DNA of 41,739 nucleotides from Cytophagales bacterium (GTDB taxonomy: Bacteria > Bacteroidota > Bacteroidia > Cytophagales > Thermoflexibacteraceae), in NCBI GenBank assembly GCA_013297565.1, contig JAAFHK010000002.1, forward strand, positions 1-41,739, in the 5' to 3' direction. A program made the position numbers and the translations under genes. Of the stretch, positions 36,319 through 38,342 are shown piece by piece; the first letter of the stretch is position 1, and each line of letters begins with the position of its first letter. The notes beneath the pieces were generated by a model. It worked only from the letters and a program-made list of their open reading frames with translations, had not been told where the DNA came from and did not search any database.

Positions 36319-37026
36319 ATGAAAAAAATTTTATTGGCTGTTTGTTTGGGCTTTTTGGCTTGTGGCAAATTAGAGGAAAATATTATTTTGGAAATTTTTG
36401 CCTATAACGAACAAACCCAAATCCAAACACAAGCCACCATAAGCCTTTACACTTCGGAGGCTGATTGGATTGAGGAAGAAAATGCCTTAATTAGCCAAAA
36501 AACAGACGATTTAGGGAAAGTAGTTTTTGATAATTTGCTGATTGGTTCGTATTGGATTGATGCCCAAAAGGATTCGCGCAATAATTGGGAACTTACTAAT
36601 CGCCTTGATCTACAAGCCAAAGGAGAAGTTTCGTTAAAAACCCAATTCCTGATCTTAAGCCCTAATCCAAGCGGTTTATTGAGTTCTGCCACAGGAAAAC
36701 GCTGGAAAATGACCGAAATAATTACCGAACCTACCATTAATATTCCTATTTGCAGATTTGATGATGAATGGGTGATTTATAAGGGCAAAAAAACAGGCAA
36801 AATTAGTCGAATCACAAACCAAGTATGCGGATCGGAAATGGCTGATAATGAACTTGTTTGGGAGTGCAAATTTGGCAATTTGTTCGAAGTTCGCAAAAAA
36901 GACGGCACATTGATCGATAGCTGGGGACTTGCTGATTTATCGGAAAATTCGTTTAGGCGGATCGAAACTTTTTCTTTGGGCGGACAAACCATTAATATTT
37001 CCGTAAAATATGAAAAGCAAAATTAA
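36319..37026 (+). CDS. Lipoprotein of unknown function, paralogue of the next gene
   Basis: 235 residues. Signal peptide MKKILLAVCLGFLAC with Cys15 of a good lipobox. The mature protein starts with a beta-sandwich-like segment (ATISLYTSEADWIEEEN...KVVFDNLLIGSYWIDAQK) and has a second domain beginning LILSPNPSGLLSSATGKRWKMTE, a stretch resembling lipocalin-like domains, with a cysteine pair further on (ICRFDD, QVCGSE). It shares this whole layout with the next gene. Function unknown. Confidence 0.75.
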   Translation: MKKILLAVCLGFLACGKLEENIILEIFAYNEQTQIQTQATISLYTSEADWIEEENALISQKTDDLGKVVFDNLLIGSYWIDAQKDSRNNWELTNRLDLQAKGEVSLKTQFLILSPNPSGLLSSATGKRWKMTEIITEPTINIPICRFDDEWVIYKGKKTGKISRITNQVCGSEMADNELVWECKFGNLFEVRKKDGTLIDSWGLADLSENSFRRIETFSLGGQTINISVKYEKQN

Positions 37027-37726
37027 TTTTCTACGAAAAATACCATTCCTTCTTGTCCTCCTCTTTTTTAACCATTGCGATCAGGAGAAAGATAATGGGG
37101 CTTTAGAACTCTACGTGATCACTGTTCTGTCGGAATTACAGGAGAATGGAACGGTTACACTTTACAAGAACGAGATGGACTGGATTAGGGAGGAAAACGC
37201 AACGAAAGAGGGTTCTAAAAATAGCAATTCGCAAGGGCGGGTTCGCTTTTTGGGCTTGTCGAATCAAACCTATTACATTGATATTCAGAAAGGTAGCCTC
37301 AATAATTGGGAAGCAAAGAACAGCGTTACACTTCAGACCAAAACGGCTTTCGAATTGGTCAAGGAATTAATCATTGTGGGTGAAAGTCAAAGCGGTTTGT
37401 TGGCAAGGGCTAAGGGCAAAAAATGGAAATTAACGAGTCCCTTACCTGCCAATTTGCGCTGTCGAACGGACGATTTTATGGTTTTTTATAAAGGCAATAG
37501 GCAAGGGCAATATGAATTATTGGAAAATCAACTCAGTTGTTCTGCCAATTCGAATCCTGTCTTGAAAGGAACTTGGGAACTCAAAGATGGGGTTTTGAGT
37601 ACAAAAATCAATGGAAATCTCGATTTCGTGGGACTGATTATATTTTTGAGTCAAGATACTATGGAAATTGAAACCGAACTTTTGGGAAGGAGTTTTTCGC
37701 TGGTTTATGAAGCCCTTAAGGATTGA
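37010..37726 (+). CDS. Lipoprotein of unknown function, paralogue of the previous gene
   Basis: 238 residues. Signal peptide with a weak lipobox (FFNHC). Aligns along its length with the 36319 product: TVTLYKNEMDWIREEN, YYIDIQKGSLNNWEAKNSVTLQ, ESQSGLLARAKGKKWKLT, LRCRTDD, QLSC. It overlaps the previous gene by 17 bases, so the pair is a tandem duplication translated from one transcript. Confidence 0.73.
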   Translation: MKSKINFLRKIPFLLVLLFFNHCDQEKDNGALELYVITVLSELQENGTVTLYKNEMDWIREENATKEGSKNSNSQGRVRFLGLSNQTYYIDIQKGSLNNWEAKNSVTLQTKTAFELVKELIIVGESQSGLLARAKGKKWKLTSPLPANLRCRTDDFMVFYKGNRQGQYELLENQLSCSANSNPVLKGTWELKDGVLSTKINGNLDFVGLIIFLSQDTMEIETELLGRSFSLVYEALKD

Positions 37727-37804
37727 TTTTAGTAGCAAAAATATACGTTTTGCAGGTTATTATACAGAAAGAATATCGTTTATAGTGTTTTTGGTATTGA
37801 TTTT

Positions 37805-38060
37805 CAGGTTAATCGCACTTAAAAATGAGGTTTTTACTAATAATTCATAGTCCTTTAGGACTTATATATTGGTAGAAATCTTGATCCCCTTGTTTCGATG
37901 TTCCGTAGGAACTGAAAATTTAGTTCCTACGGAACATCGAAATGATATTTGATCAATTTCTACCCATATTTAGCACCGATGGTGCATAAATTCAGTAAAT
38001 AATCAAAATCATTTTCTTAAAAAAGAATACAAAACGCCCAAATTTGGTGCGATTAACCTG
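37805..38060. mobile_element. MITE-like non-autonomous element, 256 bp
   Basis: Perfect 14-base terminal inverted repeats CAGGTTAATCGCAC (37805-37818) and its complement (38047-38060), flanked on both sides by the same 9 bases, ATTGATTTT (37796-37804 and 38061-38069). No coding frame of note is inside. The interior has several nested palindromes. This is the structure expected of a miniature inverted-repeat transposable element mobilised by a transposase making 9-bp target duplications. Confidence 0.85.
37849..37985. repeat. Nested palindromes inside the MITE
   Basis: AGTCCTTTAGGACT (37849-37862); an inverted pair GGTAGAAAT (37871-37879) and ATTTCTACC (37956-37964); within it a perfect 21-base-pair hairpin (arms 37893-37913 and 37922-37942, 8-base loop); and GCACCGATGGTGC (37973-37985). 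Confidence 0.8.
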
Positions 38061-38258
38061 ATTGATTTTAGTGATCGTTTTTGGAAAACACACTATTTTA
38101 TTTGGCAAAATAACAAACATTGTTGCAAAAATAAACTTGGGACTCGTCATGGGCTTTTTTGTCTTGAATGGCTTTTATTGGATTAATTTAGTATTTGTAA
38201 TCATCGGTTCTAATAGAGAATTTAGCCAAGAATTAGGTGATGGGAAATACAGAATCGA

Positions 38259-38342
38259 TGTGATAAGAGGGACTCGAACCCCCAAGCCCGTGAATGCACT
38301 ACCACCTGAAGATAGCGTGTCTACCAATTCCACCATTAAGGC
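38259..38342 (-). tRNA. tRNA-Leu (anticodon CAG), possibly degenerate
   Basis: 84 bases on the minus strand, no encoded CCA. The D-arm/loop GTGGAATTGGTAGACAC, the anticodon arm CTATC-TTCAGGT-GGTAG (5 pairs, anticodon CAG), a long variable arm typical of Leu, and the T-arm GGGGG-TTCGAGT-CCCTC are clear. The acceptor stem is poor: GCCTTAA against TTATCAC gives only the outer pair and three inner pairs, with three mismatches in the middle. The variable-arm stem is also weak. It may be a decayed copy. Confidence 0.65.

Follow-up and report, generated by a model that had tools for sequence, protein, structure and literature searches.

The window analysed here, the whole stretch of 41,739 nt, carries a 256-bp ISAs1-type MITE without a transposase gene (37805–38060, forward strand) in the interval between an ORF on the forward strand (37010–37726) and a convergent tRNA-Leu gene on the reverse strand (38259–38342). 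The element lies ~70 bp downstream of the preceding gene and faces the tRNA-Leu gene. It begins with the 14-bp terminal inverted repeat CAGGTTAATCGCAC (37805–37818, forward strand), ends with its exact complement (38047–38060, reverse strand) and is framed by a 9-bp target site duplication (TSD), ATTGATTTT, whose left and right copies (37796–37804 and 38061–38069) were identified by direct reading of the sequence, a repeat search and a randomised-window test. Perfect 14-bp ends and a 9-bp duplication around a 256-bp unit had been reported in an earlier note on this DNA, and direct reading reproduces that description exactly; a 15th matching base returned by the repeat search is part of the duplication and lies outside the MITE.

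In the window, CAGGTTAATCGCAC is found at only two sites, even with three mismatches permitted. A perfect 14-bp inverted pair alone is not rare in a window of such composition (a mean of 1.32 overlapping matches per randomised window for pairs at most 1.5 kb apart). None of 100 randomised windows combined an inverted pair with an exact 8–10 bp direct repeat immediately outside it; the real window did so once, at the MITE. The pre-insertion site would read TTGGTATTGATTTTAGTGATC, with a single ATTGATTTT. A third copy of ATTGATTTT at 37722, 74 bp upstream, adjoins neither end of the element. In addition, the 13-mer GATTGATTTTAGT at the right end (38060–38072) recurs 339 bp upstream (37721–37733), spanning the stop codon of the preceding gene; this recurrence is probably due to chance in AT-rich DNA.

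The interior consists of an inverted doublet of a REP-like unit around a 50-bp palindrome. Unit A (37849–37875, forward strand) comprises the hairpin AGTCC-TTTA-GGACT, followed by TAT and ATATTGGTAG; unit B (37960–37985, reverse strand) comprises GCACC-ATC-GGTGC, followed by TAA and ATATGGGTAG. Between them lies the central palindrome TTTCGATGTTCCGTAGGAACT...AGTTCCTACGGAACATCGAAA (37893–37942), with arms of 24 bp. The predicted fold of the whole element reaches −98.3 kcal/mol, compared with a shuffle mean of −41.6 (z = −14), and none of the listed ORFs of at least 80 aa falls within the 256 bp. Judging by their form, the hairpins could serve as the 3′ end of a transcript at the insertion site. 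As candidates for a known RNA they were rejected, since searches of RNA families returned only a plant-type microRNA and other chance matches, all far below gathering scores. Searches of plasmid, phage and viral collections returned nothing. PMC9208149 reports ISAs1 elements as over-represented between convergent genes, which fits the site occupied here.

Copies of the element and a resident ISAs1-family insertion sequence

Sequence searches of the source genome (4.36 Mb in 573 contigs), on which all copy counts rest, revealed a second full copy on another contig (C159:5359–5614) that differs at two of 256 positions (99% identity) and is flanked on each side by TATTTTTTA, its own 9-bp TSD, distinct from ATTGATTTT at the window site. 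As a near-identical 256-bp copy thus sits within a different duplication, the 256-bp form itself must have moved. A truncated copy (C437:1604–1760) is identical to the MITE over 157 bp, a further copy is cut by a contig end (C535), and a divergent relative shares 81% identity over 74 bp (C415). Together with the window element, the copies number four, of which two are complete, a low figure for an active MITE. The truncated copy (L033) stops at C437:1760, corresponding to window position 37961, which falls within the CTAC tag of the REP-like unit B; being a single case, this may be chance.

None of 97 other genomes of the order contained a match to the 256 bp. The earlier note had proposed looking for further copies, and had held that their absence, combined with a fixed presence in distant relatives, would speak against mobility. 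What we found is the reverse on both counts: copies exist at sites with differing flanks, the one on C159 with its own 9-bp duplication, and the 97 other genomes lack the sequence. The element is short, lacks a transposase gene and has terminal inverted repeats, a TSD and copies at differing sites, as is characteristic of MITEs, and it is a real and probably recently moved one.

The MITE ends also occur at four further contig ends (C77, C301, C71 and C42). Two of these, C77 and C301, start with CAGGTTAATCGCACTTAAAAA and, read inward, encode a transposase C-terminus ending in LLQVQDKQSIKSRRKIAGWNDQYLMNILKNMRF, the stop codon of which touches the inverted repeat. They have a 126-bp stretch in common that ends where the contigs end, the mark of a collapsed multi-copy repeat. 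The third, C71, starts with TAGGTTAATCGCACCAAATTTGGGC and encodes the N-terminal start of a transposase, MIWQNFFSEVPDFRIERGKLHLL; C42 ends in a comparable short stretch. On C301 the flank reads TCAAGAATA, the complement of that on C71, TATTCTTGA, so the two contigs appear to border one and the same insertion, which has a 9-bp duplication. Between them, the two sides of one insertion sequence (IS) copy accordingly specify both termini, N and C, of an ISAs1-family transposase in frame. The first 21 bp of the MITE (left) are identical to the transposase-3′ end of this resident IS, and the outer 25 bp (right) match its transposase-5′ end except for the outermost base (C against T); the 14-bp ends are thus identical save for that base at one end. 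As the middle of the resident IS is absent from the assembly, its transposase gene is known from its two ends alone.

Further ISAs1 transposase matches in this genome lie on three contigs (C124, C53 and C551), none of them in the window. The fragments on C53 and C551 score above the curated cut-off of NF033564, the ISAs1 family transposase model, and represent decayed copies; the C551 fragment shares 89% identity with the C-terminus encoded by the resident IS. The gene on C124 was rejected as a parent because it lacks matching ends. An origin from IS4-, IS5- or IS1-type elements, raised by the 9-bp duplication, was dropped since the C-terminus of the IS and its relatives match NF033564. These data bear out the earlier proposal that the MITE, lying in a window without a transposase, is mobilised from elsewhere: the predicted transposase-coding element with the same ends is resident in the genome (C77, C301, C71), the copies likewise support mobilisation, and the ends, left unassigned at the time, belong to the ISAs1 family according to the NF033564 matches and the ends of relatives.

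ISAs1 relatives and miniature elements across the order

Complete relatives of the resident IS were found in two other genomes. One, in another genus of the family (G011), is 1,181 bp long with the near-identical ends TAGGTTAATCGCAT.../TAGGTTAAACGCAC..., its locus being contained in REAZ01000027.1, a Cytophagales MAG; the other (G114) measures 1,167 bp and has the TSD TTCAAAATT. Their transposases score 335 and 354 bits, respectively, against NF033564 (curated cut-off, 70 bits). The former (L121, 6028–7208) shows an apparent frameshift at an A/T run near the transposase start. Duplications are 9 bp long in the resident IS (TATTCTTGA), in G114 and at two further loci (L068, L073), and 10 bp at another (L080). 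More distant ISAs1 elements of the order are bounded by sequences such as TAGGGTTATCGCACCAAA and CAGGGCTTACGCATCAAA, with duplications of 9 or 10 bp.

Of 390 genomes of the order, 21 contained the 18-bp end motif YAGGTTAAWCGCAYYWAA, and the reversed control pattern had no matches; in a wider genome collection, the end-pattern search matched only the sister-genus IS (G011). Short, transposase-less elements with these ends occur in several genomes of the order, and in four of them an exact 9-bp duplication flanks each such element, namely of 219 bp in G001 (ATTTGCCAA), 123 and 124 bp in G088 (ATCAATAAT and ACTGTTAGT), 142 bp in G192 (ATATATCCC) and 105 bp in G360 (ATTAAACTA). Paired ends without a clear duplication were seen in G094 (270 bp) and G112 (215 bp). 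As the interiors of these short elements differ, sequence comparison suggests that ISAs1-ended miniatures arose repeatedly and independently.

REP-like units in the interior

Beyond the outer 21 and 25 bp, the MITE shows no match to the known ends of the resident IS. The doublet that fills its interior, which was absent from the earlier note's account, is built from a unit with a stem of 5–6 bp, a loop of 2–3 nt and a 3-nt gap, followed by ATMTTGGTAG. This unit is dispersed in the genome, with 88 matches to a looser pattern (6 in the control) and 31 to a stricter one (0 in the control); of the 42 matches that a script for hairpin plus tag returned in the loci examined, nearly all took a single form. 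Stem sequences vary (ACGCC, GCACC, GTCCC, GCCCC, AGCCC, AGTCC, GTGCC) yet remain complementary, and the tail is constant. The unit also occurs inside ISAs1-type MITEs of a genome from another family of the order (G360; L192, L193, L194, L265, L266), where units of the form AGCCTCAGCGAGGCT-AAATCTTAGTAG are arranged as in the MITE (L193, L194, L266), and a looser form of the doublet lies within ISAs1-type ends in G112 (L206).

Related hairpins are also found outside such ends. In G101, GTCCCGTAGGGACGAAATATGGGTAGAA units are numerous and stand in both direct and inverted arrangement, with no ISAs1-type ends accompanying them (L257–L261). In the genome of the MITE itself, another family of repeats, ~300 bp long, is bounded by ends resembling TAATKCGAATCAGGGCTT and encloses four hairpins; it contains the same REP-like doublet within other ends and outnumbers the MITE (C7, C18, C51, C157, C165, C254 and C390; L273, L136, L254, L245, L246, L239 and L249, respectively). 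The possibility that the ~300-bp elements ending in TAATKCGAATCAGG are further MITE copies was considered and dismissed on account of these different ends.

Three Y1 transposase genes of the RAYT-like kind are present in the genome; against the model for REP-associated tyrosine transposases, one scores above the cut-off, one just below and one well below. The gene on C129 (L124, 1441–2091) encodes the motif YIHQNP, like subclass 2.6 of the Bacteroidetes in PMC6006769, and lies between hairpins of the type GTCGGAC-TAC-GTCCGAC, after which comes TGTAG or TGTAA, a design resembling the REP-like unit of the MITE. For the TnpAREP of this subclass, 'atypical secondary structures' have been described (PMC6006769), and GTAG repeats have been reported from Proteobacteria, Cyanobacteria, Chloroflexi and the PVC group, not from Bacteroidetes (PMC3733652).

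The interior thus shares with REP/REPIN (BIME) systems an inverted pair of short hairpins, a GTAG tag, dispersal through the genome and the presence of RAYT-like genes, and its unit is, as expected of a REP, a dispersed short palindrome with a constant tag. In contrast to these systems, GTAG is absent from the stem foot in the loci examined, the tag of the MITE lying 9 nt off the stem, and the unit resides inside a DDE-type MITE. A search for a cognate RAYT flanked by the unit of the MITE found none, all three RAYT-like genes lying beside other hairpins. Owing to the displaced tag and the location of the RAYT genes, we refer to the unit as REP-like and do not class it as a REP.

Origin of the element and its relation to known repeats

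Could the element have been moved or multiplied by a RAYT, the single-strand transposase of the REP type, through its doublet of hairpins and GTAG tags, with the ISAs1-like ends being incidental? The three Y1 transposase genes, the two inverted hairpin+GGTAG units of a genome-dispersed kind and the break of the truncated C437 copy inside the CTAC tag of unit B would all suit this explanation. Against it stand the limits of the element: both full copies are bounded exactly by ISAs1-type ends and 9-bp duplications, and MITEs of other genomes have the same ends and the same 9-bp duplications without such units. Neither RAYT- nor IS200-type movement is expected to produce duplications of this sort. 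As the 9-bp duplications are end-exact, we reject RAYT-driven movement as very unlikely.

Still less likely is a decayed ISAs1 element, that is, an IS which lost its middle and made no later movement of its own. Agreement with the ends of the resident IS over 21 and 25 bp and the decayed ISAs1 copies on C53 and C551 are compatible with such decay. As the whole account it is contradicted by the near-identical 256-bp copy on C159, whose different 9-bp duplication indicates movement of the short form; the interior, too, fails to match the known IS ends past these 21 and 25 bp. Finally, inverted ends and direct repeats might have come together by chance around an intergenic terminator hairpin, an idea prompted by the strong fold and by the location, with a gene on one side and a convergent tRNA gene on the other; as randomisation gave no such arrangement in 100 windows and a copy elsewhere (C159) has the same limits, the probability of this is close to nil.

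The element is instead very probably a non-autonomous miniature transposon that has both ends of the resident ISAs1-family IS and is moved in trans. This reading is carried by the common ends, the second full copy with its own TSD, the in-frame IS termini and the equal duplication length, from which we infer catalysis in trans, an intact transposase gene and present-day activity. The transposase made by the IS would recognise the two inverted 14-bp ends and would move the 256 bp by a cut-and-paste or copy-paste route; a staggered 9-bp cut at the target, once filled in, would leave the direct repeat. The REP-like doublet and palindrome would represent acquired cargo rather than IS sequence, now travelling with the MITE.

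With ISAs1-family IS (NF033564) the MITE shares the end motif YAGG...CGCAYYAAA and the 9-bp duplication; it differs in lacking the transposase gene, which the resident IS and the complete relatives possess, and in measuring 256 bp instead of ~1,170 bp. MITEs whose parent resides in the same genome are well documented, also among the Cytophagales. MITECca01 of Cardinium, as described in the available text of PMC9769881, is ~240 bp long, lacks a transposase and has 169 copies and an IS982-family parent. Size, the missing transposase and ends in common with a resident parental IS are alike in both, as is some extra IS sequence beside an inverted repeat. The two differ in parent (ISAs1 here, IS982 there) and in copy number (four, two of them complete, against 169), and the window MITE holds a REP-like doublet, of which that text makes no mention for MITECca01. 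MITEPye1 of Paracoccus yeei resembles the window MITE in its low copy number, intergenic location, strong predicted fold and IS-family ends, the latter being of the IS1182 family in its case (PMC11578231). The parts of the open literature covered contained no description of an ISAs1-type MITE; within that scope, which extends to neither ISfinder nor most subscription journals, the ISAs1 family seems not to have been tied to MITEs previously, and we make no claim to priority.

BrickBuilt of Porphyromonas gingivalis is reportedly a MITE with a minisatellite inside. The likeness is that of a Bacteroidota MITE containing another repeat, which is a minisatellite there and an inverted doublet of hairpin units in the window MITE. 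The BrickBuilt MITEs are cited in PMC5771137.

The element itself is ordinary in kind; its nested interior is unusual. Through it, a MITE is linked to the ISAs1 family by a parent residing in the same genome and a duplication whose length was measured, and such miniatures, with differing interiors, exist in several genomes of the order. It is possible, albeit rather unlikely, that ISAs1-type MITEs of the Cytophagales repeatedly carry the REP-like doublet and that a DDE-type transposase thereby spreads units otherwise dependent on a RAYT; if true, this would constitute a nested mobile repeat of two systems, one DDE-type and one single-strand (RAYT). As parent IS, MITE and hairpin units can all be named by sequence, the locus offers a concrete case for two questions: by what route the interior of a MITE is acquired, and whether a transposase can spread REP-like hairpins without recognising them.
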